Shown here piece after piece: positions 5,238 through 28,228 of a stretch of DNA of 29,005 nucleotides (positions are counted from its first letter, which is position 1; the number at the start of each line of letters is the position of its first letter). The translations under genes were made by a program, and so were the position numbers. The DNA comes from a virus, in the IMG/VR virus record IMGVR_UViG_3300021373_001353, positions 1 through 29,005 of that record, one strand, 5' to 3'. Under the pieces are notes generated by a model, which was given only the letters and a program-made list of their open reading frames with translations, made no database searches and was not told where the DNA came from.

Positions 5238-5378
5238 TTAGGCACGTATTTTACCAATACCTTGCGCCCTCAAAGTGCCATCACAGCATTTCCTTGAGTA
5301 TGTTCTTCCATTTTTACACAAGCAACCACGTTTTGAATTGCTTGGAACTTGCCTTCCTACTGTTTCTTTACTTTTCAT
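5238..5378 (-). CDS. Cysteine-rich microprotein of unknown function
   Basis: 46 residues starting MKSKETVGRQVPSNSKRG and carrying a CLCKNGRTYSRKCCDG core, with four cysteines in 12 residues. The pattern suggests a small zinc knuckle or a disulfide knot. The ATG overlaps the end of the protease gene by 11 bases, and the stop lies 63 bases before the scaffold start, so it is part of the head operon. Short proteins of this type recur in head modules of Bacteroidota phages, but I know of no assigned function. A role at the capsid (a metal-binding minor protein) is an inference from place only. Confidence 0.65.
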   Translation of the reverse strand: MKSKETVGRQVPSNSKRGCLCKNGRTYSRKCCDGTLRAQGIGKIRA

Positions 5379-6309
5379 TTCTTCCTTTGTCATCATATTC
5401 AGCTAATTCAATTTCTCCTAATTCTTTTAGTTTACCTCTACTCCAAGCAAGTCCAGCTTTACCACCCCACAACAAGTATGAGATAGTGCCACAAGCCTTT
5501 GAATCGCCAGCATCATAATATGTCTCTGCTCTCGATAAGTATGAATACATCCTCTTAATCGTGGACACACTCAATTTTTCACCTCTTGACAACTGCTGCG
5601 CTCTTATTTTCCCCACAGAGGTTGCACAACGGTTATTAACCTTCTTGTTTAGCTCAATACCTCTCTTGGCGTTATTTCTAACACCACTTCCGTAATCGCC
5701 GTAGGTTTTTAGGTTTAGCTTTCCAGCTTCAATGCTATCTGCAATCTCTAATAATACTTCAGCAGCATCTTCTTCTTGCTGCATCATGGACATAGCGACT
5801 TTATCTGTAAAGTAACCCTCAATAGAAAATCCTTTTACTTTACCTGTCTTAACGTAATCTTGCCACACCTCTTCATTGTTTACCTTCATAGAGACCATCC
5901 AAGTACCAACAGGCATCTTTAGCCCATACTTCCGAGACTTGTCATATTGCTCATCTTCTATTATCCAAGATTCAACAACAGACATTCCTGATAGTTGCGC
6001 TTGATGCTCAAGAGTTGACCTGTTTTGATTTCCCTTCATTAAGAATAATTCTGATGCCCTACGAACAGTATCTTCAGAGAAGTATATGTAATACTCATCC
6101 TCTTTTTCTCTTCTGTATATTTTCTTGTTAGGCACAAGTGCAGCGCCCATAAGAATACGCTTATCCTTATCAACATCAGCAAGCTCAACTTTTATTTCTT
6201 CTTTTAGGGCTACAAAGTTTTCTTCTATTGCAGGCTGCTCTACAATTGATATGGCATCAATGCCAGAGAACTCTCCCTCTTCGTCTATAAATAATTCTAT
6301 TACTTTCAT
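5368..6309 (-). CDS. Prohead maturation protease (S78/XkdF-like) with an extra C-terminal domain
   Basis: 313 residues. The N-terminal 1-175 resembles the XkdF/S78 putative serine protease family: an opening ISIVEQPAIEENFVAL, then the expected catalytic His (H102 in STLEHQAQLSGMSVVESWI) and Ser (S162 in VKGFSIEGYF). It would cleave the scaffold and perhaps the capsid protein during maturation. Residues about 205-300 form a second, basic helical domain (RCATSVGKIRAQQLSRGEKL, TIKRMYSYLSRAETYYDAG, SYLLWGGKAGLAWSRGKLKE) that I have seen in other phage head-morphogenesis proteins but cannot name. The fused tail may be a DNA- or portal-associated domain. It lies directly upstream of the scaffold and capsid genes. 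Confidence 0.8.
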   Translation of the reverse strand: MKVIELFIDEEGEFSGIDAISIVEQPAIEENFVALKEEIKVELADVDKDKRILMGAALVPNKKIYRREKEDEYYIYFSEDTVRRASELFLMKGNQNRSTLEHQAQLSGMSVVESWIIEDEQYDKSRKYGLKMPVGTWMVSMKVNNEEVWQDYVKTGKVKGFSIEGYFTDKVAMSMMQQEEDAAEVLLEIADSIEAGKLNLKTYGDYGSGVRNNAKRGIELNKKVNNRCATSVGKIRAQQLSRGEKLSVSTIKRMYSYLSRAETYYDAGDSKACGTISYLLWGGKAGLAWSRGKLKELGEIELAEYDDKGRNEK

Positions 6310-6318: not shown

Positions 6319-8508
6319 TTAACCGAATGATGCGGTGTTTGTTATATTTCTATCTAATTCTTGTTGTGTTGAAATGTCTTTACCTACTACAAATGCTTTT
6401 ACTGGTTTTGACTGTTGTCCAGCAACGGTTTCTGCTAATTGCGATGTTTCAGATGCGCCTACTACGTTAAAGTCTGGTGCTTGAATTGTTCTTGCGCCAC
6501 CACCTGCGCCTCCCCCTGCTCCAGCAGGTGTTTTTACCTTTAATATTTCTTTAACACTAGCAAAACCGCTAGCATAAGCAGCTATCTTTGCTATTGTACC
6601 CCTTATTGGTGAGTTTGACGTTGGTATTGGTAAAAATTGAGATTCGTATGCTTTTTGCCCAGCAGTATATGTTGACATTAAGGTTGAGGCTACGGCAAGA
6701 GCTTTACCAGCAGCAGTTTCTTTACCTGCTAATTTACTAAATGCACCCAAGGCGTTTGCGGTTACATCTAATAGCTGCATTTTTGATTTAGCTTCAAGTT
6801 CTGCTATTTGTATTCTGGCATCGGTTTGTTGTTGTTCTACATCGGTAAGCTGCTTTTGCAAGTTCATTCTCTCTTGAAAAGTCAGGTTCTCACTTTCAAG
6901 CGCAAGTTCCAATCTTTGTCTTTCTTTCTCTAACTGCTCATTCTTTAGGTTAAACAGGTTTCCAGCCTTTATACCCTCGTTAAGTATTTCTTGGTCTGCT
7001 GCCCTCTGTCTATTTTCTTCTAACTTATACTGTAATTCTCTATCGGCATCTATTACCTTCTGTGCCTGTTCTATCTTTAAATTACCTGTGGCTACTAACT
7101 CCTCTGCATTAAGTTGATTTATATATTTAGTTAAAGACTTTTTGGATTTAGCAACTTCATTGTCAAACCTCTTTTGGGCATCTAATCTTTTATTTTCATC
7201 TTCTTCAATGGCAAGAAACTCATCTAATCTTCTTTGTTGGTCTTGTTCAAACTCAGTTCGCTTTAATCTTGCCCTTTCTCTAATACCATCAAACTTAATT
7301 TTAATTTGTCGTTTTTCATCTTTTATAAAACCCTTGAGTAATCTCTCTCTTGACTTCTGCGTTTCTTTCTCAAAGTCAAGGTCTGCTGCTTTAAATATAC
7401 GATTTCTTGCTCCTGAACCTTTTTTAGCTGAATCTATCTGTATTTGAGTATATTCAATAAGAGAATCTATTTGCTCATCTAATTTTTTATTCTCTTTGTC
7501 TCTATTTTCTATTATTCTTTTTACAGCAATATCATCTCCCCTTACCTCTTCCGCTCTTATTATTGTTTTTTTCCTTATAGAAATAGTTTCTTCTTTTCTT
7601 TTTTCTATTGTCTCGTCAAGGCTTTTAGATAGCTTCTCTGCCTGTTCTATTGTTAGATTACTTACATCCTTTAATTCATTTTTTGCATCAATCTCATTCT
7701 GTAATTGTTCAGATACAAGTTCGTCTATCTTATTTTGTGCTGCACGAGCCATCGCTAAAGCAACAAGTGATTCTCTATATATGTCATTTTGTTCAGCAGC
7801 TTGAGCTGTGTTATTAGCTACATCAGATAAAGAAACTTCAGCATCATCTAACTGTTTTATGTATTCAGGAAATTCTTTATTTAACGCCTGTATTGCTTTT
7901 TTCTGCTCTTCTTGTGATTTATTAGAATCCTGAAGTGTTCTTATATAAGTTTCAAACTTACCTGCTGTTCCTTGAACTTCACTTCCAGCATTCTTAAATG
8001 TTTCTTTTAATAGATTTCCTCCACCAGCTAAATCTTTAAAAACATTGTATAAATCACTTCCGTATGTTATTAATAACTGTATTCCTATAAGAAATGCAGC
8101 CTGTGCTGTAAAAAGACCTGATATTGCTGAAGCAAAAGAACCAGTTGCTTTTACGTTTAGTTGAACTAAATTCACTAACTGCGACAAGTTGTTCGCTATG
8201 GCTGTAAAACCAAAACTCGCATCAGAAGCAAGTCGGCTACTTTCCATTATAATAGCATTATTCAGACCAGAGGTTGCCCTCATTCCGTCTGTCGCTTTTG
8301 CTGTTGCGTTTGCTGCTGCTGCCTGTTGAGTAAGAGCTTTATCAACTTCTTTGGCTGATAGTACTAATTGTTTATCTGCAATGATTTTTGCCTTTTCAGC
8401 ATCAGTAAGACTATTAAAGTTATCTTTAGTAACTTTTAATTGCTTTTGGGTATTAGCAGCCTCCCTATCGTTAATCTTTATCGATATGAGTATCTTTTGT
8501 TCAGCCAT
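6319..8508 (-). CDS. Tape measure protein
   Basis: 729 residues and one of the two largest genes, as expected for the protein that sets tail length. Residues about 1-100 are helical (TQKQLKVTKDNFNSLTDAE); about 110-165 hold a hydrophobic patch (GLFTAQAAFLIGIQLLITYG), as tape measures often have. Residues about 200-560 are highly charged coiled coil. Residues about 570-660 are Ala/Gly-rich (NALGAFSKLAGKETAAGKAL), and a Gly-rich linker (AGAGGGAGGGA) precedes the C-terminus. By the usual approximation of about 1.5 angstroms per residue, the tail would be roughly 100 nm. Its place next to baseplate-like genes fits. No peptidase or lysozyme motif is visible in it. Confidence 0.82.
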   Translation of the reverse strand: MAEQKILISIKINDREAANTQKQLKVTKDNFNSLTDAEKAKIIADKQLVLSAKEVDKALTQQAAAANATAKATDGMRATSGLNNAIIMESSRLASDASFGFTAIANNLSQLVNLVQLNVKATGSFASAISGLFTAQAAFLIGIQLLITYGSDLYNVFKDLAGGGNLLKETFKNAGSEVQGTAGKFETYIRTLQDSNKSQEEQKKAIQALNKEFPEYIKQLDDAEVSLSDVANNTAQAAEQNDIYRESLVALAMARAAQNKIDELVSEQLQNEIDAKNELKDVSNLTIEQAEKLSKSLDETIEKRKEETISIRKKTIIRAEEVRGDDIAVKRIIENRDKENKKLDEQIDSLIEYTQIQIDSAKKGSGARNRIFKAADLDFEKETQKSRERLLKGFIKDEKRQIKIKFDGIRERARLKRTEFEQDQQRRLDEFLAIEEDENKRLDAQKRFDNEVAKSKKSLTKYINQLNAEELVATGNLKIEQAQKVIDADRELQYKLEENRQRAADQEILNEGIKAGNLFNLKNEQLEKERQRLELALESENLTFQERMNLQKQLTDVEQQQTDARIQIAELEAKSKMQLLDVTANALGAFSKLAGKETAAGKALAVASTLMSTYTAGQKAYESQFLPIPTSNSPIRGTIAKIAAYASGFASVKEILKVKTPAGAGGGAGGGARTIQAPDFNVVGASETSQLAETVAGQQSKPVKAFVVGKDISTQQELDRNITNTASFG

Positions 8509-8662: not shown

Positions 8663-10920
8663 AATGCGTTTAATAATTCTAGTTTAGATTCACCTGTTTT
8701 TAAGTTTGTGTCTATTGAATTTATGGTAAACACCTTGTCTCCAATCTGAAATCTGTCATTCAGCTTATAATTAAGTAATATGCTGCTCGGTAAATGTGCT
8801 GTAAGTTTGAATATTCTTTTCTTGGCGTTAAACGCATCTTCTATATATGTTTGATAGAATTTCTTAAACAATGAGTTAGACGTTCCTGCGTAATCTTGAA
8901 GTGTAAACTCATCAACTTCGCTATCAAAGTTTATTGTAAATGAGGGTTCATCATCATCGTCAAAACCATTAAATTCAACAGAGTTTGATGGTCTCCAGTA
9001 TGTAGAAACAGCAGAGTGCGTTCCGTTATCAAGCCAACTAATTCTTTGGTCTGGATTTGTAGACAATTGAATCTGTCTTATTCCATAAAACAAAAGAGGG
9101 TTTGTAAGAACAGAATCATAATCACCAGTCTTTGGGTCTGCATCTGCATCTGGCTTAAAATTATCCCCAGCCGAATATCCCCACATTATTCTCGTAGTTC
9201 CAAGTGCGGAGGTGTCATCATCATCAAACAACTTCTCAAACTTCATGTGTGCAAAGGGAACTTCTATCTTATATGGTTTACCCCTATCTACATCGGGTGA
9301 CTTGTATTCTGAATCTCCAAAAACCTCATTAAATGCTTCTTTATGCTGAATCATTAAAAGGGTTTTAGCCTCTTTATACTTAAATTCAATTTCACTATAA
9401 GGTATCGTAGCCTCTATGTCCGTTGAGGCTGAATCAACGTATTTTCTTATATCGAAAATTCTTGGGTTGTCAGCATAATAATCATCAAGAGGCAGAACTC
9501 TTATCTTTCCATAATCATTGTCATTTCTGTCATCTATAAAGTATGATGTAAGATTAAACATCTTAAATATTCCAGTAAGAAAGTCATATACTTTCATTTT
9601 TGGCATCCTTTCCGTTGGGCGTATTGTGGTTACTGTCGCTACGTTGTCTGGAGTATAGACACCATCCGCCAAAGTTGTATCAGTACCCTTCGCCCTGTCT
9701 CTTATTTGTCTAACTCTTAAAGATGATGTTGCTGAAAATGCTGAATCTGCACTAACGACCATCTTTATACCAGATATAGTTCCGCTATATGTAGAGAAGT
9801 TTCTACCAAACTCAAAAGTTTTAGTGCCATAAACGTTATCATGCTCTGCGATTATAGCATTGTTGTCAAGTGTGTTTATCACTTTAAGCGTGTATGGTAG
9901 TGTGGATGATGTTGTTACTGTTAAATCAAATTGAACCCTGTAATCTATTGCTGCTGTTCCAGTTCCAGTAACCCATTCTTCTATTTTAAATACAGAATCT
10001 TCATCTGTTCCAGAATCCTCAATACTTGGCGTTATATTTAACGTTTGAAAGTCAGCAAGGGTATCTCCAGAAGAGTGTGTAAAGTTCTGTAATACGTATT
10101 CAGTAGCATTTCCTCCGCCAATTTCACCTTTTTCTCGGCTTAACCACATATACAAGCCTCTATTTATAGTTCCAACTCCAGAAAACGCCTCTGAATCGAA
10201 AAACTCTCTTGTAAACTCTATACCATATTTTCTTTCAATAGCCTCTATAATATATATTAGCCTCAATGCTGGTTTTAAGTCTTGATACTGAACCCCTCTG
10301 TGGTGCGTTCCACCACCACTTTGATACGCTATATTTCCAGAAAGAGTGTCTGCTGTATTATTAGAAGAATCAAAAAACAATCTTTTTGTGTGCGTAACAA
10401 GGGGTACTATAAGGGGTTGTCTTGTTGTATATCCATCAACAGTAACATCTAATTGACTTGTAAATCTTGATTTGCTTTGAATATTATTATATTCATAGGA
10501 AAAGTTATCAATCCAAGTAAGTGATTCTAATTCATCATCGCCAAGCAAATCTTTTAGTGTAACGGTGTTACCATAGAATGTTACGTTGTAGGCGAATGGC
10601 TTGTTCTCCTTCATCTTCACGCCATTTAGGAATATCTTACCTTCTCTAAACGGAATGTAGTTTATCTCAAGCCTAGCATCAATCTTCTTTCTAGCATCAA
10701 ACGCACCTTCTGATATAAAGTAGTTGTAAAAATGTTTAAATATCTTGTTGTTCTTCTTTGACGCAGGTACTGTAAATGATTGAGAGAAGTCAGTAAATAC
10801 TTTAGATATATCTCGTATATCCTGTATTTTGGACGTTACAGAGATTGTTTCATCTTCAAACAAGTCCACCGCCTGAAATACATTGTCGGAATCTTTTATA
10901 TACAATACTACTTTATTCAT
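8659..10920 (-). CDS. Tail tip / baseplate-like structural protein
   Basis: 753 residues. The N-terminal domain has SVTSKIQDIRDISKVFTDF, then QSFTVPASKKNNKIFKHFYN and FDARKKIDARLEINYIPFR, a block I associate with large tail proteins of Bacteroidota siphophages. The middle has Thr/Ser-rich beta-strand repeats, and the C-terminus (LNYKLNDRFQIGDKVFTINS, LKTGESKLELL) looks like a compact beta domain as in tail-hub proteins. It lies directly upstream of the tape-measure gene (with one small gene between) and downstream of another tail protein, coupled by TAATG at 10920. A hub or distal tail role is an inference from position and architecture; no enzymatic motif is seen. Confidence 0.7.
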   Translation of the reverse strand: MNKVVLYIKDSDNVFQAVDLFEDETISVTSKIQDIRDISKVFTDFSQSFTVPASKKNNKIFKHFYNYFISEGAFDARKKIDARLEINYIPFREGKIFLNGVKMKENKPFAYNVTFYGNTVTLKDLLGDDELESLTWIDNFSYEYNNIQSKSRFTSQLDVTVDGYTTRQPLIVPLVTHTKRLFFDSSNNTADTLSGNIAYQSGGGTHHRGVQYQDLKPALRLIYIIEAIERKYGIEFTREFFDSEAFSGVGTINRGLYMWLSREKGEIGGGNATEYVLQNFTHSSGDTLADFQTLNITPSIEDSGTDEDSVFKIEEWVTGTGTAAIDYRVQFDLTVTTSSTLPYTLKVINTLDNNAIIAEHDNVYGTKTFEFGRNFSTYSGTISGIKMVVSADSAFSATSSLRVRQIRDRAKGTDTTLADGVYTPDNVATVTTIRPTERMPKMKVYDFLTGIFKMFNLTSYFIDDRNDNDYGKIRVLPLDDYYADNPRIFDIRKYVDSASTDIEATIPYSEIEFKYKEAKTLLMIQHKEAFNEVFGDSEYKSPDVDRGKPYKIEVPFAHMKFEKLFDDDDTSALGTTRIMWGYSAGDNFKPDADADPKTGDYDSVLTNPLLFYGIRQIQLSTNPDQRISWLDNGTHSAVSTYWRPSNSVEFNGFDDDDEPSFTINFDSEVDEFTLQDYAGTSNSLFKKFYQTYIEDAFNAKKRIFKLTAHLPSSILLNYKLNDRFQIGDKVFTINSIDTNLKTGESKLELLNAL

Positions 10921-12113
10921 TATCGAATATTGTTTATTTTGTCTACTGCAACATCAAACTCCATACTGTACTGAACCAACTTATCATTAACTCTCTTCTT
11001 CAGTTGAAGTGATTGCGTTTTTAGTTTCAATGGTACTATCTTTTCTTCGTCTGTGAGCCTTGTCATCCAAACCTGCTCTGACAGCATAAGCTGCTTTATA
11101 TGCTCATTACATGATTCGTCAATGTAATCTGTATTTAACGTTATACTATCGTTACCAACTAGGTTCAGCGTTCTCATTTGATGCTCTGAAGTGTCATATG
11201 AGAAGTTTGCAAAGTCCATTACGGAAGCCTTATAATCCTCCTTTTTTATATTAAGAGATTCATTATTTCTTCTTGTGAAGTAAAGGTCTTGTAATGCGCC
11301 ATACTTATTCACAAAGGTAACTCTTATCGGCTCATACTTTGAGCAGTCGAATGTTTTTACCTTGAGTATCTTCGTTCTTGTTTCTGTGTCGTTTGTATAG
11401 TTAACCCAAACCTCATCGACAGCACCTATATCAACAACATTCTCAAACGCTTCTAATAACGAGTTATCTTCAAATACACCTCCAGCCTCAAGAACTCTCT
11501 CTTTGTAGCTGTCTGCTGTTGAATTGCTATCGGATGCTATGTATTGGATTGCTTCAGATGTTGTTGGGTTTGCTGGGTCTGTATAAACAACATTTTTAGA
11601 ATATACAGTTTCTCCATTTAATCTAAAAGCTACGCTATTTGTTGTATCTGTATAAACAGGAATATTAACACTCCTGTCATTAACCCTGTATATAGTGCCT
11701 TCAGACATCATCAGTCCTTCATCGAAGTCTGGATTAATACCTTCTTCAAAGTATCCGTAACCTTCTGTTGCTACGAATTGATTATAATAATCACTTGGCG
11801 TTACTGTTGGTGAGGAAAGTGAGTTTCCATTTTCATCAAATGCGGTAATTATGGGATTTACCAAAACTACATAACTATCATATTCGCCATCATACTTTAT
11901 CTGGATGTAGTCTCTTACAAGTTCAGATATTTCAAATACAACGTAATTATTGCCTTCTAGCTCCGCTTTAACTATGGTGTACTTTAAATCTTCAGGGTCG
12001 GGAGTTGAATCTCCTGTTCCCTCATATATGTAAAGTTGTAGTTTAGCCTCAAACAAATCTGCGTGATAAACTTTTATATAAAACGGACTTCTTGTGTTTA
12101 TTAATCTTGCCAT
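10920..12113 (-). CDS. Tail-associated structural protein
   Basis: 397 residues, beta-rich and acidic (MARLINTRSPFYIKVYHADL, FEISELVRDYIQIKYDGEY). The C-terminal third includes FVNKYGALQDLYFTRRNNES, SITLNTDYIDESCNEHIKQL and KRVNDKLVQYSMEFDVAVDK, a conserved-looking block of Bacteroidota phage tail proteins. It is coupled by TAATG to both the upstream connector-like gene and the downstream baseplate-like gene, so the three are probably made in similar amounts. A distal tail or baseplate wedge role is inferred. No signal peptide, membrane segment or enzymatic motif is apparent. Confidence 0.62.
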   Translation of the reverse strand: MARLINTRSPFYIKVYHADLFEAKLQLYIYEGTGDSTPDPEDLKYTIVKAELEGNNYVVFEISELVRDYIQIKYDGEYDSYVVLVNPIITAFDENGNSLSSPTVTPSDYYNQFVATEGYGYFEEGINPDFDEGLMMSEGTIYRVNDRSVNIPVYTDTTNSVAFRLNGETVYSKNVVYTDPANPTTSEAIQYIASDSNSTADSYKERVLEAGGVFEDNSLLEAFENVVDIGAVDEVWVNYTNDTETRTKILKVKTFDCSKYEPIRVTFVNKYGALQDLYFTRRNNESLNIKKEDYKASVMDFANFSYDTSEHQMRTLNLVGNDSITLNTDYIDESCNEHIKQLMLSEQVWMTRLTDEEKIVPLKLKTQSLQLKKRVNDKLVQYSMEFDVAVDKINNIR

Positions 12114-12667
12114 TATTTCCCTTTAAAAACGTATGTATCGCCCTTCTTTGTATAGCCGACACTTTTTAATATTTCATCTAATTTACCTGTTATATCTTCT
12201 TTTAGTGGAGGTAGCATACCATCTACTATATTCTCAAATGCTTTTTCTACAACTTCGCCAATGTATCTTGCTGGCGCAATACCACGAAGTGATATAGCCT
12301 CTCCAATCTTGTATGCGACCTTTGCTATGTTAGATTCTGTTCTCGGCATCGCCCTTCCTCCAAAATCCTTTAGCGTTACTGGCTTCTGTCTAATCCAATC
12401 CTTTATAGCATTCACGTTAGGGCTGAATGGTGCTGTGCCTTCGTCTACGCCCTTAAGGTATGAGTTACCGTATAGGTTTATATCAAGACCACCGTTCTCT
12501 ACTCTTACGTTTAACGATTCGCCACCTTCTCCGCTTGACTTTACTGGCGCATTTATCTTACCTACTCTTTGTCTTGATGTCTGATACGATTCAAGGAAAT
12601 ACTGAATCAATTTCGTTTCTGCGAATGATTTAACGTATGCTTCAGTATTTTTAAATCTAATCTCCAT
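12113..12667 (-). CDS. HK97 gp10-like tail/neck protein
   Basis: 184 residues. The stretch SYLKGVDEGTAPFSPNVNAIKDWIRQKP, followed by AYKIGEAISLRGIAPARYIGE, matches the general pattern of HK97-gp10 and related proteins, where a V-D-x-G-T-xP loop precedes a helical pair and a final GIxP segment. These proteins sit at the head-tail neck or help end the tail. The gene is coupled (TAATG at 12667) to the preceding tail-completion-like gene, the usual gp10/tail-terminator pairing. The residues after 150 are charged and helical. The family assignment is by motif recall. Confidence 0.68.
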   Translation of the reverse strand: MEIRFKNTEAYVKSFAETKLIQYFLESYQTSRQRVGKINAPVKSSGEGGESLNVRVENGGLDINLYGNSYLKGVDEGTAPFSPNVNAIKDWIRQKPVTLKDFGGRAMPRTESNIAKVAYKIGEAISLRGIAPARYIGEVVEKAFENIVDGMLPPLKEDITGKLDEILKSVGYTKKGDTYVFKGK

Positions 12668-13137
12668 TAGCAGACAGTTACAACATTATTAGGGATTGAT
12701 ATAGATAGGGTAAGCGCCCAACCAGTCATTAAGTTCTCAAATCTATCTTCAAACATAGTGGCAGTTGCATCGGTATCTAAAACGTAGTTATCATCGTTCA
12801 GGTCTCCACGTCTTAATTTAGACTGCAATCTGTTTATTACTGCAAGCTGCGTGTTTAACACATCGTGTTTATTATCCAGTCCCTGATAAGGTATTGAATC
12901 GCTATCGAATCTATCTTCCTTACTTTCGTCAACCAAGTCCATTGCTATCACCTGAATCGAGAATGTTATTGTATGTTCTCCAAATACAGCATCCTGTATG
13001 TTTATGTGTGATAATGGGAATATACTCTGCTTGGACAAGTCAACATCCATAATGTTACCAAAAGTAACTGTGCTTACAAATTCACTTGAATTTAGCTCTT
13101 CGTATATTTTATCTATAAGGTCGTAAAACTCTTTCAT
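12667..13137 (-). CDS. Tail completion / tail terminator-like protein
   Basis: 156 residues (MKEFYDLIDKIYEELNSSEF). The sequence SIFPLSHINIQDAVFGEHTITFSIQVIAMD and an acidic linker ending in a final WALTLSISIPNNVVTVC strand suggest an alpha-beta fold like small tail terminator proteins, which cap the tail tube at the neck. Size and position (between the chaperone and the gp10-like gene) support this. Its ATG overlaps the stop of the -1 frame of the tail chaperone gene (ATGA at 13137-13134), so ribosomes that shift frame end exactly at this start codon. Confidence 0.6.
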   Translation of the reverse strand: MKEFYDLIDKIYEELNSSEFVSTVTFGNIMDVDLSKQSIFPLSHINIQDAVFGEHTITFSIQVIAMDLVDESKEDRFDSDSIPYQGLDNKHDVLNTQLAVINRLQSKLRRGDLNDDNYVLDTDATATMFEDRFENLMTGWALTLSISIPNNVVTVC

Positions 13138-13397
13138 CTCTTGTATGCTTTCTTTATCATTGCAGCTTCTAATTCATTCTTTTCTTTTTCAAACGTCAGG
13201 AAGTTGAGGCATTGGAAAATCGGAAGTCTGGTAACTTGGTCAAACTTGAGAACATTTCCTCCAGCGAGAGCGTAGATTGATTGATACCAACCCCACTTTG
13301 AGCCAAAGCCTGCTTGAGCTGATAAGTCTGTTCCTCCGTCAGATTTTTCTGTATATAGCTCGGTATAGCTCTCAACAACTCCTTCCCTAAATCGTAA
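13134..13397 (-). CDS. -1 frameshift C-terminal extension of the tail assembly chaperone (gpT-like part)
   Basis: After the slip on T TTT TTT, the -1 frame reads 87 codons, with no stop, to TGA at 13136-13134. It begins LRFREGVVESYTELYTEKSD and then gives a good folded-looking domain: FGSKWGWYQSIYALAGGN, VLKFDQVTRLPIFQCLNFL and TFEKEKNELEAAMIKKAYKR. The WGWYxSIYxLAxG and LxFEKEKNELE signatures are ones I recognise from Bacteroidota phage tail proteins. The fused protein would be 254 residues against 233 for the zero frame. The extension fills the apparent 58-base gap between genes and ends on the next ATG. Over 13196-13397 both frames would be coding. Confidence 0.7.
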   Translation of the reverse strand, partial: LRFREGVVESYTELYTEKSDGGTDLSAQAGFGSKWGWYQSIYALAGGNVLKFDQVTRLPIFQCLNFLTFEKEKNELEAAMIKKAYKR

Positions 13398-13897
13398 AAA
13401 AAAACCATAGAACTCATTACTACATCAAGAGGCATTTCTTTCATTAGGTTAGAGACTTCTTCACTTGGTTCGTAGGGCGCTACTGTATACTTATCTTTCT
13501 GCTTGAAGTTAACTGGTCTATAAAGTGCTGCCATCGCCTTGTGCATACTTCCCCAGTCTGATATGTTATCTTCTACGTCTATGTATGCGCCAAGAGAAAT
13601 ATTCTCTAACTGCGGTTCAAATCCCATATCTACGCCAAGTAAGTCAAACCTGCGTATTAGATTAGGTTTCTCTTCAAACGCCTTGTTGATTATGGTTAAC
13701 ACCTTTTCCGCATCTTTAGCTGGAATGTTAAGCACTTCCTTTAGGGATATGTTACAGAATATCTCAATAGTCTTTAACGCCAAGAAATCATCAGCACCTT
13801 CATTCTCTTCAAGTATTCTCAAGTATCTCTGATATTGCCCAAGTGTTATGCTTGACAAGTCAGTTGGAACTGATAATTCTATTTCTATGGTTTTCAT
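13196..13897 (-). CDS. Tail assembly chaperone (gpG-like), zero-frame product
   Basis: 233 residues. The N-terminal part (MKTIEIELSVPTDLSSITLG, then IFCNISLKEVLNIPAKDAEK) looks like a tail chaperone domain. Such proteins bind the tape measure before tail-tube polymerisation and are made in two lengths by a -1 ribosomal frameshift. Here codons 165-167 are GTT TTT TTT, followed by TAC, giving a T9 run with a perfect slippery heptamer. Past it, the zero frame continues as YDLGKELLRAIPSYIQKNL to NASTS, while the -1 frame encodes a second plausible domain. Unusually, the zero-frame product continues 66 residues beyond the slip site. It is the first tail gene of the virion operon. Confidence 0.75.
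   Translation of the reverse strand: MKTIEIELSVPTDLSSITLGQYQRYLRILEENEGADDFLALKTIEIFCNISLKEVLNIPAKDAEKVLTIINKAFEEKPNLIRRFDLLGVDMGFEPQLENISLGAYIDVEDNISDWGSMHKAMAALYRPVNFKQKDKYTVAPYEPSEEVSNLMKEMPLDVVMSSMVFFYDLGKELLRAIPSYIQKNLTEEQTYQLKQALAQSGVGINQSTLSLEEMFSSLTKLPDFRFSNASTS
13396..13405 (-). promoter_or_regulatory. Programmed -1 frameshift site (T9 slippery run)
   Basis: The minus-strand sequence is G followed by nine T, then ACG. The heptamer T TTT TTT lies in the correct register for a -1 slip (zero-frame codons 166 and 167 are TTT). The -1 frame then stays open for 87 codons. I have not folded the downstream region, so a stimulatory structure is neither shown nor excluded. Confidence 0.65.
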
Positions 13898-13984
13898 ATC
13901 TAAATAATAATTGGTTGTTTAAGTGTACTTATTGATTATGCACCTGCCTGTATGACACATATATATAATATATATCTTAATGTA

Positions 13985-14100
13985 TAATAACATGTATCGT
14001 ATCTTAATATGCATTTTAAGAAGGTTATGTTTTATAAAGCATATTAACATGATACACTCTATATAAATAATATAACATGTATTATATAATAACATGAGTA
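13985..14100 (-). repeat. AACATG repeat array, left copy
   Basis: The region between the 87-residue gene (stop 14106) and the tail chaperone (start 13897) is A/T-rich with no credible gene. It carries four AACATG cores at about 13989, 14046, 14074 and 14091. The first lies in ATAACATGTATCGTAT and the last two are 17 bases apart. The same unit and spacing recur at 26487-26602. It could be an origin part or an operator for the virion operon; neither is proven. Confidence 0.75.
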
Positions 14101-14105
14101 ACCAG

Positions 14106-14369
14106 TTATGATTCATAACCTACTTTTTCTAAATGGTTGTCGTAGTATTTTATGTAGATGCGCCACAAAACATCAGTCAATTCTTCTTTTTTGTACTTAT
14201 CAGGCGATTTAATGCGTTTTAAGCCATTATCTATTTCAATATGATACATATCTCCACTTGGTACAGGATATGCTCTTAAATAGCTTCTAAATGCCCAAGA
14301 GATAGCTTTACGAGCTTTATCTGTGTCTTGTAAATGCAATGGAATTGGTTTTATCTTACGTTTTGGCAT
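14106..14369 (-). CDS. Small basic protein, first gene after the virion-operon promoter
   Basis: 87 residues (MPKRKIKPIPLHLQDTDKAR to YYDNHLEKVGYES). It is basic and helical with IEIDNGLKRIKSPDKYKKEE and TDVLWRIYIKYYDNHLEK segments. I do not recognise a family. It is the first gene read from the promoter at 14531-14562, after a leader of about 155 bases that holds four TATTRRATT repeats. Being first in the late operon and small and basic, it could be a regulator or DNA-binding protein, but no helix-turn-helix is clear and I give no function. Confidence 0.55.
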   Translation of the reverse strand: MPKRKIKPIPLHLQDTDKARKAISWAFRSYLRAYPVPSGDMYHIEIDNGLKRIKSPDKYKKEELTDVLWRIYIKYYDNHLEKVGYES

Positions 14370-14370
14370 A

Positions 14371-14448
14371 CCTATTAGATTTATAGCTAATATACGAATA
14401 ACCTATTAGATTCACAAGTAAGGGTATTAAATTCATACCTATTGAATT
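14371..14448 (+). repeat. Cluster of four TATTRRATT repeats
   Basis: TATTAGATTTATA (14373), TATTAGATTCACA (14404), TATTAAATTCATA (14425) and TATTGAATTGAG (14440) all read on the plus strand, each preceded by CC or GG. They lie in the untranslated leader of the virion operon. They belong to the dispersed family also found near 2997, 16781, 18332 and 28244. Confidence 0.7.
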
Positions 14449-14530
14449 GAGTGGCAGGTGGAAATGATTAGGTAGGTGGAGAGTGGAGATATAATGTATG
14501 AGTGGTGGACACTCGGCAGAGTACCAACAA

Positions 14531-14562
14531 TAAAGATACAAAACATTCCTATACTACACAAA
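14531..14562 (-). promoter_or_regulatory. Promoter of the virion operon
   Basis: On the minus strand TTTG (14562-14559) is followed 20 bases later by TATCTTTA (14538-14531), close to the TTTG-N19/20-TAnnTTTG Bacteroidota pattern. It lies just downstream of the terminator at 14605-14636 and next to a tandem AATGTTAAG-type site. It would initiate the leftward structural transcript near 14525. Confidence 0.6.
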
Positions 14563-14567
14563 TAAAT

Positions 14568-14587
14568 TGCGTTAAGATAATGTTAAG
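14568..14587 (+). promoter_or_regulatory. Tandem operator-like site (left hub)
   Basis: TGCGTTAAG AT AATGTTAAG: two TTAAG-containing half sites 11 bp apart. The same 11-bp tandem occurs at 16621 and 18206. Here it is immediately upstream of the virion-operon -33 element, where a bound protein could activate or block transcription. Confidence 0.5.
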
Positions 14588-14604
14588 TATTTTAGGTGTG
14601 GATA

Positions 14605-14636
14605 TAAAAAAAAGGGCTGCATTTCTGCAACCCCTT
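14605..14636 (-). terminator. Intrinsic terminator of the accessory operon
   Basis: Minus-strand RNA: AAGGGGUUGCA / GAAA / UGCAGCCCUU followed by a run of U. A GNRA-type tetraloop and a U-G pair valid only on this strand mark a leftward terminator. It follows the 46-residue gene and insulates the virion operon, which starts about 70 bases further on. Confidence 0.85.
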
Positions 14637-14676
14637 AACAAAACAAACTAAAAAAACTCTACTTCTTCTCCTATTT

Positions 14677-14817
14677 TTATTTTATCCACTTAATTAAACC
14701 GTTATCATTCAACCACTTAAGGAACTCTTTATCTTGTAGATGATTTATTTCTTTGCTTTGTTTTGTTCTACTTTCTTTAATTATTCGCAAATTATTTTCA
14801 AATATATTCCTATTCAT
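14677..14817 (-). CDS. 46-residue protein of unknown function
   Basis: MNRNIFENNLRIIKESRTKQ to WLNDNGLIKWIK; charged and helical, with a Trp-rich end (KWLNDNGLIKWIK). It is the last gene of the accessory operon, 11 bases after the 58-residue gene and just before a strong terminator. ATG follows an A/T-rich leader without a Shine-Dalgarno. I recognise no family. Support comes from orderly spacing and codon use like the neighbours. Confidence 0.5.
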   Translation of the reverse strand: MNRNIFENNLRIIKESRTKQSKEINHLQDKEFLKWLNDNGLIKWIK

Positions 14818-14827
14818 ATTAATTATT

Positions 14828-15004
14828 TTAACGTTGATACCATTGCTTTGTAGCTCTCTTACTTATATAAAAATTGCCACCGATTAAGCGATATTCATTT
14901 AATAAATATAGTGCCTCTTTCCTTGTTTCGGCTTCGTCAATAGTTTCAATGCCGTATCCGATAGATGGTGTATAGTTGTCGTTTTTGTAGTTTATGTAAT
15001 ACAT
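14828..15004 (-). CDS. 58-residue phage protein of unknown function
   Basis: MYYINYKNDNYTPSIGYGIE, then ETRKEALYLLNEYRLIGGNF and ISKRATKQWYQR. The layout (a short strand, a KEALxLLNEY helix, and a final YxSxRAxKxW motif) is one I have seen in small proteins of Bacteroidota phages and plasmids; I know no function. It starts 6 bases after the stop of the 273-residue gene, so it is co-transcribed with it. Length looks complete. Confidence 0.58.
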   Translation of the reverse strand: MYYINYKNDNYTPSIGYGIETIDEAETRKEALYLLNEYRLIGGNFYISKRATKQWYQR

Positions 15005-15009
15005 ATTAT

Positions 15010-15831
15010 TTATATTAAGTTATCAATGTAGTTAATTTGTTCTTTGCTTATATTGTGGCATCCTATTCTTAAAAGTTTATCGAATGATATTGTAGTGTAA
15101 TTTCCTACCTTTGCGCCTCGCATCATTGCGCCACTTTTAAGCAGCTTTAAATAGCGTTTGGCTTCGTTTACATCTATCTTTACCCCTTGTGAAGTTTCAA
15201 CGAATTGAGCGCATTTAGACAGGCGTAAATAATCTTTGCCACCGATACGAAAATAGTCCTTTTTATATTCCCTAAATTTAGACAGGCTTTTAATCAATTG
15301 CTTTTTTTCTTTGTCCTTCTTTTTTCTTTCCTCTTCTTTTGCCCAATCTTTAAGGTCTTGAATGCTGGTTTCCTCTTGCAACGAATCAACAAATAAAAGA
15401 AGCTCCTTATATTCTTTGTATTTTCTTAATTCGTTTCTTTTGCGCTCATTTATATATTCATTAAAGGAATTCCACAATCTATAAATTTGACTAATATACA
15501 TTTGCGGTTTTCTGGCTTTGGATAGTTTCTTTTTTAAGTACATTATATCCCTATAAACTATATTAATATCTGTTTTTGTTTTATAATATTGTTTATATTG
15601 AGACGTTGCACCACATAGCAAACTTATATGTTTGCCTGTTGAAACACTGTACCCTTCATCGTTTATTAGTATTGTTTTATCATCTAAAAAGCGCCCTAAT
15701 TCGTAATGGTAGCCATAACTATATATTTTGTCCCCCTCAAAAAATATACTTCTATTTGGAGTACGTCCATTGTTTTGTGTCCGTTGTGCAAATGTGTGTA
15801 CACATTCGCTGTTGGTGAATACTGTTTTCAT
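15010..15831 (-). CDS. Conserved phage hypothetical protein with a charged coiled-coil middle
   Basis: I start it at the ATG at 15831 (MKTVFTNSECVHTFAQRTQN), giving 273 residues; the 20 codons upstream lie in an A/T-rich leader. Residues about 5-75 (HTFAQRTQNNGRTPNRSIFF, then GDKIYSYGYHYELGRFLDD and ILINDEGYSVSTGKHIS) resemble the N-terminal domain of a widespread phage family, in which a YSYG-H motif follows an NxSF-type strand. Residues about 110-230 are Lys/Glu-rich helix, and the C-terminal 60 form a small folded end. No catalytic motif is recognised. Genes of this type are common in phage accessory zones. Confidence 0.65.
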   Translation of the reverse strand: MKTVFTNSECVHTFAQRTQNNGRTPNRSIFFEGDKIYSYGYHYELGRFLDDKTILINDEGYSVSTGKHISLLCGATSQYKQYYKTKTDINIVYRDIMYLKKKLSKARKPQMYISQIYRLWNSFNEYINERKRNELRKYKEYKELLLFVDSLQEETSIQDLKDWAKEEERKKKDKEKKQLIKSLSKFREYKKDYFRIGGKDYLRLSKCAQFVETSQGVKIDVNEAKRYLKLLKSGAMMRGAKVGNYTTISFDKLLRIGCHNISKEQINYIDNLI

Positions 15832-15955
15832 TTTGTTTTGTTTTATTGTGTTAATTTTTAAAAGGGGGGAAGTGTTATTATTGAGGCTCACAATTCAGCT
15901 TCTTGCCTACAATACGGTATTATCGACACTACACCCCCATGTTAATATATTTCTA

Positions 15956-16219
15956 TTATTTTACTAAATATCCCCAGTCATCAAAATAGAATTTACTTTG
16001 TTTTAATGCGGATTTTGTCAATTTATAATCGTTCATTTGCTCGTAAGAATTTACATCTAAAAAGCAAACGGACACTTTTCTTATATCGCTATTGCAAATC
16101 ATCGTGTCATTGATATCATCGATAACGTCTATTAGTTCTCTGTCTAAATCATTGGACAAATTAACGTGCATTATTTGTTGTGGCTCGCTTTCGTATGTTA
16201 GTATTAATTCTGTTTTCAT
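15956..16219 (-). CDS. 87-residue acidic protein of unknown function
   Basis: MKTELILTYESEPQQIMHVN, then LDRELIDVIDDINDTMICNS, with a KVSVCFLDVNSYEQMNDYKL strand-helix and a final FYFDDWGYLVK. A ferredoxin-like alpha-beta layout is plausible but not shown. ATG overlaps the preceding stop (ATGA at 16219-16216). The 124 bases between its stop and the next gene contain a C-rich tract and A-rich leader; I see nothing else certain there. Confidence 0.55.
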   Translation of the reverse strand: MKTELILTYESEPQQIMHVNLSNDLDRELIDVIDDINDTMICNSDIRKVSVCFLDVNSYEQMNDYKLTKSALKQSKFYFDDWGYLVK

Positions 16220-16341
16220 GTTGTTTTGTTTATTTCTTGTTCTACTATTTCCGCCAAAGGGTAAATATCAGTATATTGATTAAGGTCTAATTTACGCCCC
16301 TTAATTTCCTCTACTCGTTTTATATAATCAAATAAATACAT
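16216..16341 (-). CDS. 41-residue protein of unknown function
   Basis: MYLFDYIKRVEEIKGRKLDL to AEIVEQEINKTT; helical and charged. It is linked by ATGA overlap to the next gene and follows an A-rich leader (AAAATAAAAAATAAAC) characteristic of Bacteroidota translation starts. No family recognised. Coupling to its neighbour is the main support. Confidence 0.5.
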   Translation of the reverse strand: MYLFDYIKRVEEIKGRKLDLNQYTDIYPLAEIVEQEINKTT

Positions 16342-16355
16342 GTTTATTTTTTATT

Positions 16356-16442
16356 TTATTGTGTTAATATTATTCGAAGGGCTAAATATAGCGGCACGAT
16401 GTATAAAAGTAGGTGCACCGCTTTTTTTGTTATTTTGTCCAT
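16356..16442 (-). CDS. 28-residue membrane microprotein
   Basis: MDKITKKAVHLLLYIVPLYL, then ALRIILTQ: one membrane helix after a lysine-rich start. It begins 3 bases after the stop of the preceding 36-residue membrane protein. Two single-helix proteins in a row suggest a small membrane pair, perhaps superinfection exclusion or lysis related, but this is only an inference from form. Confidence 0.42.
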   Translation of the reverse strand: MDKITKKAVHLLLYIVPLYLALRIILTQ

Positions 16443-16445
16443 GTC

Positions 16446-16556
16446 TTATAAATTACTAAAAATTTGAATTGATGCGCCAATAATGAAGGCGAATGTCAAG
16501 CCTACCAAAATGTAAGCGAAAATATTTGTTTTGTTGTTTGTGTTGTTTGTTTTCAT
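16446..16556 (-). CDS. 36-residue membrane microprotein
   Basis: MKTNNTNNKTNIFAYILVGL, then TFAFIIGASIQIFSNL: a polar Asn/Thr start and one strong membrane helix. It is the first gene from the promoter at 16595-16629, with a leader of roughly 35 bases ending in A/T-rich sequence. Function unknown. It may be an inner-membrane protein acting in takeover or exclusion. Confidence 0.48.
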   Translation of the reverse strand: MKTNNTNNKTNIFAYILVGLTFAFIIGASIQIFSNL

Positions 16557-16594
16557 AATTGTTAATTTATATTATTTATTTGTTTTTGTTAGTA

Positions 16595-16629
16595 CAAATA
16601 TGCAACGTTTTTTTGTTTCTAATGTTAAG
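16595..16629 (-). promoter_or_regulatory. Leftward promoter at the middle hub
   Basis: CATATTTG (16602-16595), one mismatch from TAnnTTTG, lies 18 bases downstream of a CTTAACATT box (16629-16621). The same 18-base distance is seen at the right hub. It would drive the small membrane-protein operon. Confidence 0.4.
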
Positions 16630-16664
16630 CCAATGTTAAGTTTTTAATAGTGAAATTTAACATT
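16621..16664 (+). promoter_or_regulatory. Operator-like box cluster (middle hub)
   Basis: AATGTTAAGCCAATGTTAAG at 16621-16640 is two identical 9-mers 11 bp apart. An inverted TTTAACATT follows at 16656-16664. The cluster lies between diverging promoters and shares the exact 20-mer with 18206-18225. Confidence 0.6.
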
Positions 16665-16691
16665 AAGTTTACATACAATTTTGTATATTTG
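16656..16691 (+). promoter_or_regulatory. Rightward promoter at the middle hub
   Basis: TATATTTG (16684-16691), a perfect TAnnTTTG match, with a TTTAACATT box 19 bases upstream in place of a TTTG -33. An ATG follows 4 bases later, at 16696. Confidence 0.45.
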
Positions 16692-16695
16692 CAAA

Positions 16696-16794
16696 ATGGA
16701 CTATCCACACCTTAACGTCAGAATTACCCTACACGATGCAGGGCGAATACTACACACCCAAAATACAAGCATAAACCCCCTATTGAATTCATAG
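16696..16794 (+). CDS. Possible 32-residue leaderless peptide
   Basis: MDYPHLNVRITLHDAGRILH to NPLLNS. The only support is the perfect -7 element 4 bases before the ATG, the same spacing as at the ERF gene and at 18256. The 3' end is formed by the dispersed TATTGAATTCA repeat. It may be a peptide, or the transcript may act as RNA convergent to the gene ending at 16898. Confidence 0.25.
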   Translation: MDYPHLNVRITLHDAGRILHTQNTSINPLLNS

Positions 16795-16864
16795 CCCTAT
16801 TAAATTCACAGGGTATTAAATTTACAAAAGGGGGTATTAAATTTATTCTCCTGTTAAATACAGG
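16781..16864 (+). repeat. Tandem TATTRAATTYAYA repeats
   Basis: Copies begin at 16781, 16798, 16814 and 16835, plus a degenerate TGTTAAATACA at 16852; the steps are 17, 16, 21 and 17 bases. All read on the plus strand, most after CC or GG. They lie between a possible rightward transcript and the 3' end of the leftward gene at 16898. The surrounding 16557-16897 region otherwise holds the hub promoters. Confidence 0.75.
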
Positions 16865-16897
16865 AATAAGCCAATAAAAAAAATGGCGCAACCTAAT

Positions 16898-17197
16898 TCA
16901 ATCATCCGTTTCATTTTTAAGGTTATCAAAACTAAAATCGTGTTCGTAAACTTCCTCCATTAAGGCACAATAAGCCACTTGCGGTATTGTGGTACATTCT
17001 AATTCAAATCTACTAAAATCGTAGGCATTTAGCGAATCAATTATTTCCATGCAGTCCGCATAATATATACACGCATTATCTATGTACTCGTGTATGTGTG
17101 TTTGCACATCATCATCATTTAATATGCTTTCATTCTTAATTTCCTCGATTAACTCATCTTTCAAATCGCTAATCCAATCGTTTATTCTAAATTCCAT
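16898..17197 (-). CDS. Acidic phage protein of unknown function
   Basis: 99 residues, strongly acidic: MEFRINDWISDLKDELIEEI, then THIHEYIDNACIYYADCMEI and a CTTIPQVAYCALMEEVYEHD segment. The helical, acidic build with two paired cysteine-containing helices is reminiscent of DNA-mimic or small regulatory phage proteins, but I recognise no family and would not assign an anti-restriction role. Its ATG overlaps the preceding stop by 11 bases and it is the last gene in the operon beginning at 18156. Confidence 0.6.
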   Translation of the reverse strand: MEFRINDWISDLKDELIEEIKNESILNDDDVQTHIHEYIDNACIYYADCMEIIDSLNAYDFSRFELECTTIPQVAYCALMEEVYEHDFSFDNLKNETDD

Positions 17198-17399
17198 TTA
17201 TCTTATGTTTTAATTGCATAATCAAATCCTCATCTTCTTTTTTCTTTTGCTTCATGGTTACTTCAATAATACTTGGTAGCCAATCGAACAATGCCTGTGG
17301 GCGTATTGTTACTGTATTGTGGTCATTAGATAAGCACACGCCATCTTCATTTGACCATAATGTAATTATCTCATCAATATATATTTCTTCGTTATTCAT
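17187..17399 (-). CDS. 70-residue protein of unknown function
   Basis: MNNEEIYIDEIITLWSNEDG, then NDHNTVTIRPQALFDWLPSI and a Lys/Glu-rich helix (MKQKKKEDEDLIMQLKHK). The N-terminal part looks like a small beta sheet ending in a DWLPSI helix start, a pattern I have seen in short phage proteins without known function. It sits 13 bases after the 176-residue gene and overlaps the next one, so it is part of the same operon. Confidence 0.58.
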   Translation of the reverse strand: MNNEEIYIDEIITLWSNEDGVCLSNDHNTVTIRPQALFDWLPSIIEVTMKQKKKEDEDLIMQLKHKINGI

Positions 17400-17412
17400 T
17401 ATTTGTATTTAT

Positions 17413-17943: not shown

Positions 17944-17949
17944 TTGTAT

Positions 17950-18156: not shown

Positions 18157-18179
18157 TTGTGTTATTTTTATGTTCGATG

Positions 18180-18853: not shown

Positions 18854-20071
18854 TTACCTCAAAACATACATACCCTTCGGCACAGTTCTTTCAAGGGCGT
18901 ATTGAATTGCATAGCGACTTCCGTCAATGGCGTGATTCCAAGAATCTCTGGGAATACTGCCCTTTAGCTTCCATGCGTAATTGTTAAACTCACGTATTAG
19001 ATTCACAGATTCTTTATCTACAACTATATTGTAATCTTGCATAAGAGCGATACCAGATAAAATGCTACCTTTCTTTTTTATAGTAGGCGTAATGTTTTTA
19101 AGTCCTTTTGTCTTTAACTCTGATATGAGGCGTGGCTCACTGTTGTCGCATACAATTAGATTATTCCCAGCATATCTCCTACACATCTCAAATATATTAG
19201 ACGTAGAAAGCCCAGCTTTGTAGAAGTGTTCTTTTATCCATATAGTCTTTCGTAGCTTATCTACCGCAATTTCAGTTAAGGTTGAAGGGTCAACGCTAAA
19301 TCCAAAGTCAAGTCCAAAGATGGTATCATACTCGTTATTGAAATCGCCAATCTCCCAATGAGTAAACACAACCCCTTCTGCTTTCTCAAGCCATCCTCCC
19401 AATATCTGGTGCTTGAACTTCTCTGGTCTCCTTTGGCGCATTACCTCAACTTGCTCTACAAAAGATGGAGACAAGTGTTGCTTGTTGTCAAGATAGGTTG
19501 TATGTATATAGCTGACGTTCTCTTTAACGCCATTATAACCGTCTTTAATGCCTCTATTCTCAAAAAACCTCTCATATATCCAATGCTGTTTAGTTGTGGG
19601 GTTTAAGATAAGGATGCAGCGATTCTGCTTCCCAGTAGCACGAACAGAGTAATCAATCTTCTCAAACGATTCTTCGTCTGTAAGTTCTTCTGCTTCATCC
19701 AAGACAAATGTCGTAACGCCTTGAATAGACTTGAGTTTGGCTGTTTGGTCTCCACTCGCAGTCTTAATACCACTAAACAGAATACTGCTTCCTGTTAGGT
19801 TATTTATAATCTCGTTCTTTGTAACGGTAAAGTTCTCTGCAATACCCATCAGTTCAAGTTTCTCCAAGAACTCTGGTATAATAGACATAGATGCCGAAGT
19901 CATTGTATATCGAGTAAACAATATGCGATGCCCTCTTTCGTATGTTAGAAGCACCAAGAATGTATTTACGCCAAATGATTTACCAGAACCTCTACCACCT
20001 GTAATTACAAAGTATCTGCTTGGGTCTCTGAACAGAGGATTGTATTTAGGGTTGAGGTTTACTTTCTTCAT
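18854..20071 (-). CDS. terL: Terminase large subunit
   Basis: 405 residues. ATPase domain: Walker A GGRGSGKS (residues 25-32), Walker B TFVLDEAEE with D125/E126, and the coupling motif ILILNPTTK (about 153-161). RNase H-like nuclease: D255 in IFGLDFGFSVDP, D309 in IVCDNSEPR, and D383 in NHAIDGSRYAI. This is the motor that cuts and pumps DNA into the procapsid through the portal; the type is PBSX/Terminase_3-like. The start overlaps the putative small subunit by 26 bases. Unusually, it is separated from the portal by about 17 kb of leftward genes. No motif is missing. Confidence 0.95.
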   Translation of the reverse strand: MKKVNLNPKYNPLFRDPSRYFVITGGRGSGKSFGVNTFLVLLTYERGHRILFTRYTMTSASMSIIPEFLEKLELMGIAENFTVTKNEIINNLTGSSILFSGIKTASGDQTAKLKSIQGVTTFVLDEAEELTDEESFEKIDYSVRATGKQNRCILILNPTTKQHWIYERFFENRGIKDGYNGVKENVSYIHTTYLDNKQHLSPSFVEQVEVMRQRRPEKFKHQILGGWLEKAEGVVFTHWEIGDFNNEYDTIFGLDFGFSVDPSTLTEIAVDKLRKTIWIKEHFYKAGLSTSNIFEMCRRYAGNNLIVCDNSEPRLISELKTKGLKNITPTIKKKGSILSGIALMQDYNIVVDKESVNLIREFNNYAWKLKGSIPRDSWNHAIDGSRYAIQYALERTVPKGMYVLR

Positions 20072-27730: not shown

Positions 27731-27762
27731 CAAATATATAAATTCCAACTGACATTACAAAA
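27731..27762 (-). promoter_or_regulatory. ERF promoter
   Basis: TTTTG (27762-27758), 19 bases, TATATTTG (27738-27731), then 4 bases and ATG at 27726. It overlaps the end of the upstream nuclease gene. Confidence 0.72.
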
Positions 27763-28132
27763 TAATATCGAAATTATTGAAATTATCTTTGTATTTATTG
27801 GTTAAAGATAGGCGCATTGCCTTCTGTTCTACATTAGGAATGATGAAGAATCCATTGTATTCATCGAACCATACCGCAAAGAAGTCGCACAAATGCTTTG
27901 GATAAGCGCCACCCTCTCTATGTAAGGTAACTCTAGTGTTGTTATGTTCTATGTCTTTCTGCCTTTCAGCACTAACATATTTAATCTGAATCTTAAATAC
28001 TTTACCGCCCCTCTCAAGTAAACAGTCATAAGTAGATGAATCTAAAAGTGGCATAGATACATTAAATCCATTCTCCATCGCTCTTGTGGCGAACTTATAC
28101 TCTGCAAAACAACCCTTTTGATTTCTATCCAT
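27755..28132 (-). CDS. PD-(D/E)XK endonuclease (PDDEXK_5-like)
   Basis: 125 residues from the ATG at 28132 (MDRNQKGCFAEYKFATRAME). GCFAEYKFATRAMENGFNVS is the opening helix with Glu, STYDCLLERGGKVFKIQIKY holds the Asp and the Q-x-K pair. This arrangement is that of Holliday-junction-resolvase-like and PDDEXK_5 endonucleases. It could cut branched intermediates or host DNA. I prefer 28132 to a TTG start upstream because a TATATTAG -7-like element lies 4 bases before this ATG, the spacing seen in the other leaderless genes. Confidence 0.75.
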   Translation of the reverse strand: MDRNQKGCFAEYKFATRAMENGFNVSMPLLDSSTYDCLLERGGKVFKIQIKYVSAERQKDIEHNNTRVTLHREGGAYPKHLCDFFAVWFDEYNGFFIIPNVEQKAMRLSLTNKYKDNFNNFDIIL

Positions 28133-28144
28133 TCGACTAATATA

Positions 28145-28228
28145 CAAAAAAAAAGTGGCAACCTAAAAAAGCTACCACTTTCTATGAAACAAAATAAAAA
28201 ACAAATGAAAACAGGATTAACCTGACAC
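28145..28228 (-). ncRNA. Possible short RNA or leader ended by a terminator
   Basis: A TATATTTG element at 28240-28233 would start a transcript near 28228, which meets a strong terminator at 28152-28181 within about 80 bases. It has a small CAGG/CCTG hairpin near its 5' end and no ORF of note. It could be a small RNA, an attenuated leader for the nuclease gene, or a chance promoter-like match. Confidence 0.3.
28149..28181 (-). terminator. Intrinsic terminator after the lysis genes
   Basis: Minus-strand RNA AAAGUGGUAGC / UUUUUUA / GGUUGCCACUUU plus a U9 tract, an 11-pair stem with two G-U pairs valid only on this strand. It divides the lysis group from the recombination operon. Confidence 0.82.

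Follow-up and report, generated by a model that had tools for sequence, protein, structure and literature searches.

Probable −1 frame change at a nine-T tract and apparent selection on both protein endings in a gpG/gpGT-like phage tail gene

Described systems and the layout of the locus

Frameshifting in tail chaperone genes is usually viewed as a choice between a short protein and the same protein plus a domain. Ribosomal slippage is the known mechanism in these genes, and the classical examples adjoin the tape measure gene, as does lambda G, the heptamer of which is not poly-T. Outside the tail genes, Shigella mxiE changes frame at a run of nine A/T. The frame change of Thermus dnaX, which is also not a tail gene, likewise falls on nine consecutive A/T (PMC5009743). 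In lambda, the slip occurs near the 3′ end of G, and gpG is almost without a separate tail (PMC5009743). In SPP1, gp17.5 (173 aa) shares its first 112 residues with gp17.5*, the slip site being UUUUUUC (PMC6316719). The frame-changing trick is thus already known in phage tail genes; what is new at the locus described here is the strict run of nine T's together with a double-coded ending that appears to be selected.

The window (i.e., the whole stretch of viral DNA analyzed here, 29,005 nt, from IMG/VR record IMGVR_UViG_3300021373_001353) contains a gpG/gpGT-like tail gene of a marine bacteriophage in which, judging from the sequence and its relatives, a programmed −1 frame change very probably takes place on a poly-T tract. 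Both reading frames are on the minus strand (13897 to 13134), a detail missing from the original prediction; read on the plus strand, the same interval has no ORF and its translations are ridden with stops. The parts of the gene are as follows.

13196..13897, minus strand: zero-frame ORF (ATG start, 233 codons, TGA at 13198-13196), encoding the putative short, gpG-like product of 233 aa
13396..13404, minus strand: T9 slip tract, with T_TTT_TTT in register at codons 165 to 168 (GTT TTT TTT TAC)
13137..13397, minus strand: −1 frame extension of 87 codons, a candidate T-like domain with the motif KWGWYQS (stop TGA at 13136-13134)
13196..13396, minus strand: dual-coded stretch, i.e., 66 zero-frame tail codons and the stop, also read in the −1 frame
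12667..13137, minus strand: next gene (156 aa), the ATG of which overlaps the −1 stop TGA as ATGA

Codons 164 to 168 of the zero-frame ORF read ATG GTT TTT TTT TAC, and the −1 frame is entered by a −1 shift after the second TTT of the tract. The two predicted products (233 and 254 aa) have their first 167 residues in common and differ in their C termini. Once assigned to the minus strand, the structural elements that had been predicted were all found in the sequence: the T9 tract at codons 165 to 168 with its in-register T TTT TTT, the −1 frame that stays open for 87 codons, contains both of the quoted motifs (WGWYQSIYALAGG and TFEKEKNELE), and ends in a TGA overlapping the next ATG, and the zero frame that continues for 66 codons beyond the slip. 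The predicted 200 or so dual-coding bases amount to 201 nt with the zero-frame stop counted. The −4 overlap between the −1 stop and the next gene is alike in 102 of 145 relatives (described below).

The zero-frame protein is homologous to gp40 of Nonlabens phage P12024L and to phrog_32199, and the −1 extension belongs to a conserved family (A4) similar to P12024L gp41 and phrog_38404. As modeled by AlphaFold (mean pLDDT, 85), the zero-frame protein has a long helix (residues 157 to 185) that spans the slip point, followed in the zero-frame tail by two further helices of lower confidence. The −1 extension was also modeled as helical, and the confidence was high beginning at the WGWY motif.

The gene resembles lambda G/GT in its predicted short and frameshift-extended products with a common N terminus and in its compatible position within the morphogenesis cluster, whereas the lambda slip leaves almost no separate tail. 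The likeness to SPP1 gp17.5/gp17.5* is a mid-gene −1 change at a U-rich heptamer with a tail peculiar to the short form (61 codons in SPP1) (PMC6316719). Unlike SPP1, the window gene has T9, and most of its −1 domain overlaps the zero-frame tail; no sequence homology was found between the two, and the comparison was made from the published description (PMC6316719). The long zero-frame tail, predicted to be unusual, has a precedent in gp17.5 (PMC6316719); in the present family it appears to be selected. A literature search that covered few subscription papers found no publication testing such a tail for selection, a weak negative.

The neighborhood of the gene was delimited by three further features.

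18854..20071, minus strand: terminase large subunit (Pfam PF04466; E = 1.6e-33), the upstream anchor of the morphogenesis module
6319..8508, minus strand: tape-measure-like protein (729 aa), proposed from its length, helical/hydrophobic makeup, and position, and the presumed client of the chaperone
5368..6309, minus strand: XkdF-like head maturation protease (Pfam PF14550; E = 1.3e-14), the downstream anchor

The 729-aa tape measure candidate had no profile match in Pfam or NCBIfam. Between it and the frameshift gene are four tail-like ORFs on the same strand, unlike the classical arrangement in which the two genes are adjacent. The same gene order, with a T9 slip, was found in a flavobacterial prophage (L320) on a 3.9-Mb chromosome contig. 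Over positions 161 to 20071, the minus strand of the window carries the terminase, tail genes, tape-measure-like gene, protease, capsid, and portal, with the portal and capsid genes following the tail module instead of adjoining the terminase.

Position and architecture fit the predicted role, i.e., a gpG/gpGT-like tail assembly chaperone, and we infer the function by analogy while treating the gene as a putative member of that group. Neither half matched a characterized chaperone in Pfam, NCBIfam, or the PDB sequences, and a fold search of both halves (Foldseek, PDB), which a known chaperone fold may have escaped, returned nothing usable. The BFVD entries labeled as tail assembly chaperones gave weak matches only (E = 0.6 and 1.4). 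One weak fold match, gp10 of Flavobacterium phage 6H (NC_021867.1 10352-10927), was rejected, as its −1 frame closes immediately after T_TTT_TTC. In phage 6H, this heptamer is near the end of gp10. The gp10 gene precedes that for the tape measure, and after gp10 comes an unannotated gap that holds a T-domain-like stretch.

If the division of labor is modeled on lambda gpG/gpGT, the majority of translation would yield the 233-aa protein, which would coat the tape measure protein. A minority would enter the −1 frame and yield the 254-aa protein, the WGWY domain of which would recruit tail tube subunits. The slip itself would most likely occur on the ribosome, by tandem tRNA slippage at U_UUU_UUU.

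Relatives of the gene and conservation of the slip site

Relatives were collected by a search with the fused protein (80 loci), a search with the Nonlabens homologue (13 added), and an alignment-based search (80 added), the results of which partly overlapped. Deduplication, together with two MAG contigs, gave 145 distinct genes from viromes, some only about 27 to 35% identical. In all 145, the N- and C-terminal homologies stand in a −1 relation, and the site of the change is constant and holds an in-register T_TTT_TTT. The tract was T9 in 123 genes, T10 in 21, and T12 in 1, and neither T7 nor T8 occurred. The original prediction had left room for relatives lacking the T run and for a −1 frame devoid of homologues and constraint; instead, at least nine T's are present in 145/145 relatives, and the −1 extension has both homologues and constraint (see below).

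Relatives that seemed in a pattern scan to be without T7 proved, where read at the slip, to have T9, with RWGW and not KWGW. In a freshwater clade (84 to 86% alike), T9 was likewise found in every gene for which the slip was read. Outside these sets, a search of phage DNA gave a single match, a 58-base, chance-like stretch in Listeria, and three weak genome matches (L262, L266, and L268) were discarded because their architecture differs.

The −1 relation could have arisen from an insertion/deletion during sequencing or assembly of the homopolymer, the real gene being one continuous ORF. T9 is error prone on some platforms, and some BFVD proteins of 226 to 268 aa, among them the phage proteins A0A516L611, A0A516L5A8, and A0A6J5N0W0 (258 to 267 aa), match both halves, which suggests the existence of distant homologues in which the halves form a single unshifted frame. 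However, the same −1 relation occurs in 145 distinct sequences from independent samples, in two isolate genomes, and in an integrated prophage, and the zero frame is conserved beyond the slip. We consider the probability of such an artifact to be negligible.

The two isolates, Nonlabens phages P12024L and P12024S, are the closest and the only named ones among the relatives. Their gp40 and gp41 are homologous to the window gene and have T9, an in-register T_TTT_TTT, and a −1 extension with KWGWY; the differences are a zero-frame tail of only 25 codons and an annotation as two unrelated hypothetical proteins. In P12024L, gp40 and gp41 (NC_018272.1 23946-24640; L081 6001-6695) are halves of one T9-frameshift gene, and the annotated start of gp41 is an internal ATG. 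This annotation is the precedent for a different explanation, namely, two genes, with the −1 ORF having its own start or being translated by reinitiation. Against it, the −1 frame ahead of the conserved motif is without ATG in 133/145 relatives and without ATG, GTG, or TTG in 108/145, and the zero-frame stop is far downstream. Two separate genes are very improbable, and a programmed frame change within one gene remains the preferred reading.

Cousins of the frameshift gene were found in Bacteroidota chromosomes (L274-L318); in one family, roughly one genome in five (60/301) has such a gene. Among the 44 cousins whose slip was read, T_TTT_TTT is in register in every case, with tracts of T7 (27 genes), T8 (4), T9 (10), and T10 (3). 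The cousin gene was near a terminase gene in the single neighborhood that was read (L319). The zero-frame tail after the slip is 52 to 79 codons long in the main clade, 16 to 26 in the Nonlabens clade, and 6 to 53 in the cousins. With homologous slip tracts that range from T7 to T10 and tails of 6 to 79 codons, the family offers a natural series for learning when the ribosome and when the polymerase is used to change frame.

We also compared the tract with the rest of the same loci. The Phe-Phe pair at the slip is written TTT TTT in 145/145 relatives; away from the slip, these loci use this spelling for only 121 of 273 Phe-Phe pairs. Their other coding sequence (394 kb) contains no T≥9 run (4.6 expected from synonymous shuffles), two T8 runs (14 expected), and 24 in-register T_TTT_TTT heptamers. 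Because runs of at least nine T's are absent from this sequence and heptamers are tolerated, it is the length of the tract, not the heptamer, that marks the site. On the tree, a flanking T was lost upstream twice and downstream once; each time the tract had shifted and still comprised at least nine T's.

Selection on the two endings

The original prediction spoke of two credible protein ends, a claim upheld by signs of selection in both frames (i.e., synonymous suppression and excess zero-frame conservation). An alternative is that the zero-frame tail is passive, the slip being early and the frame open by chance or through the composition of the −1 frame. In agreement with this, the length of the tail is variable, and its motif GVGINQ shadows KWGWYQ in the shifted frame. 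We assessed what the −1 protein by itself imposes on the zero frame. With the −1 protein held fixed and its codons drawn synonymously according to the usage of the upstream part, conditional on the end position of the tail, few random draws left a zero-frame tail of the observed length open (median per sequence, 1%). Codon junctions that would make stops are avoided in the zero-frame tail.

Synonymous change, read in the −1 frame, is suppressed in the overlap. Among 31 independent close pairs, pS was 0.147 in the overlap; the part upstream gave 0.368, and the stretch beyond the zero-frame stop gave 0.263. Normalized per amino acid, the observed/expected synonymous ratio was 0.42 to 0.58 in the overlap and 0.71 to 0.75 past the zero-frame stop. 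The eight codons right after the slip are the most constrained (0.20 to 0.26), to which a local nucleotide requirement beside the tract could possibly contribute. At the amino acid level, we compared divergent pairs, the synonymous sites of which are near saturation. The zero-frame similarity over codons 2 to 52 exceeded the level forced by the −1 protein by z = 22, and the excess past the stop was z = 3 to 5; both the synonymous and the similarity tests use related sequences, and these z values are not probabilities.

The strongest argument that the zero-frame tail is selected, as far as such comparisons can indicate, is the control provided by the Nonlabens sister clade, in which the tail is short. 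The same −1 codons have observed/expected synonymous ratios of 1.00 to 1.17 in that clade, and the similarity excess past its stop is z = 0.2 to 1.7. A constraint at the RNA level could lower synonymous change too, but it would neither exclude stops nor keep the residues of the zero frame, and the folding analysis gave no sign of an RNA structure. A passive tail is thus very unlikely, given the rarity of open frames, the synonymous suppression, zero-frame residues in excess of −1 demands, and the loss of the effect past the sister-clade stop. We conclude, on comparative evidence, that both frames are under amino-acid-level selection in the overlap, i.e., that this stretch is dual coding.

On this comparison, the DNA that encodes the −1 extension also gives the short protein an ending that is under selection in its own right, and the usual picture of a protein with and without a domain gives way to a pair with alternative C termini. 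The zero-frame tail thereby becomes a testable object. With this reading, the annotation is also set right for a large group, comprising uncharacterized marine and freshwater phages and Bacteroidota prophages.

Ribosome or RNA polymerase at the slip

Ribosomal slippage, which the original prediction had taken for granted, is the most likely slip step, although our confidence in it is modest. It is the known route in tail chaperone genes, and it is slightly favored because the cousin prophages work with T7, which is short for ordinary polymerase slippage. The in-register X_XXY_YYZ heptamer expected for this mechanism is conserved in 145/145 relatives and 44/44 cousins, and any T9 contains one. 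The stimulators that often accompany frameshifting, common but not obligatory, were not seen: shuffled folding gave no stimulatory RNA fold upstream or downstream of the slip (mean z, about 0), and only 15/145 relatives have any SD-like tetramer upstream of it. RNA folds in the cousins were also near zero, with the exception of one 60-nt window in those with T9 or more (mean z, −1.05).

The invariant tract of at least nine T's keeps a second route in serious contention, which we rate as somewhat short of even: RNA polymerase, alone or in addition, would slip on T9 and produce U10 (or U8) mRNAs, and U10 read normally would give the long protein. A selected A/T run of about nine or more at the frame change, as expected for transcriptional slippage, is present. 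When bacteria transcribe nine consecutive A's or T's, slippage is efficient, whereas ribosomes of Escherichia coli shift only weakly at U_UUU_UUU (PMC5009743). The absence of detected stimulators points in the same direction, as does the retention of T≥9 in 145/145 relatives when a ribosome needs only T7. The three lineages that lost a flanking T, each keeping the length by a shift of the tract, and the 394 kb of coding sequence in which T≥9 is absent and T8 rare, yet 24 in-register heptamers are tolerated, also favor the polymerase. Furthermore, in 138/145 relatives, the +1 frame to which a U8 mRNA would give access ends after no more than three codons.

On the other side, the tract in 31 of the 44 cousins, which share the architecture, is T7 or T8, no longer than the usual threshold for polymerase slippage. 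The flanking T's could be accounted for in part by hydrophobic residues in both frames, and register does not discriminate, as every T9 holds an in-register heptamer. No publication reporting polymerase slippage in a tail chaperone was found in the literature search, again a weak negative with few subscription papers covered. Ribosomal slippage accordingly remains our preferred slip step. More tentatively, the chaperone pair may be made by polymerase slippage at the invariant T9, with the T7 cousins ribosomal and both C termini functional, a combination that we consider possible but doubtful. Were it true, one gene family would span both slippage mechanisms, as dnaX does.

Several observations on homopolymers and heptamers were made along the way. 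In the 394 kb of flanking coding sequence, there is strong avoidance of runs of at least 8 T's (2 compared with about 19 expected); the avoidance sets in abruptly between 7 and 8, and A runs are less avoided. Apart from the slip tract, the window has a single run of nine, which reads A9 on the plus and T9 on the minus strand and is at 28146-28154, the very start of a putative TTG-started ORF (28147..27755). Inside the dual-coded stretch of many relatives, a further heptamer, A_AAA_AAT, stands in register (accompanied in some by G_GGA_AAA). The A_AAA_AAT sits at the K-W codons of KWGWY, 20 to 45 codons before the zero-frame stop (L026, L034, L040, L067, and others).
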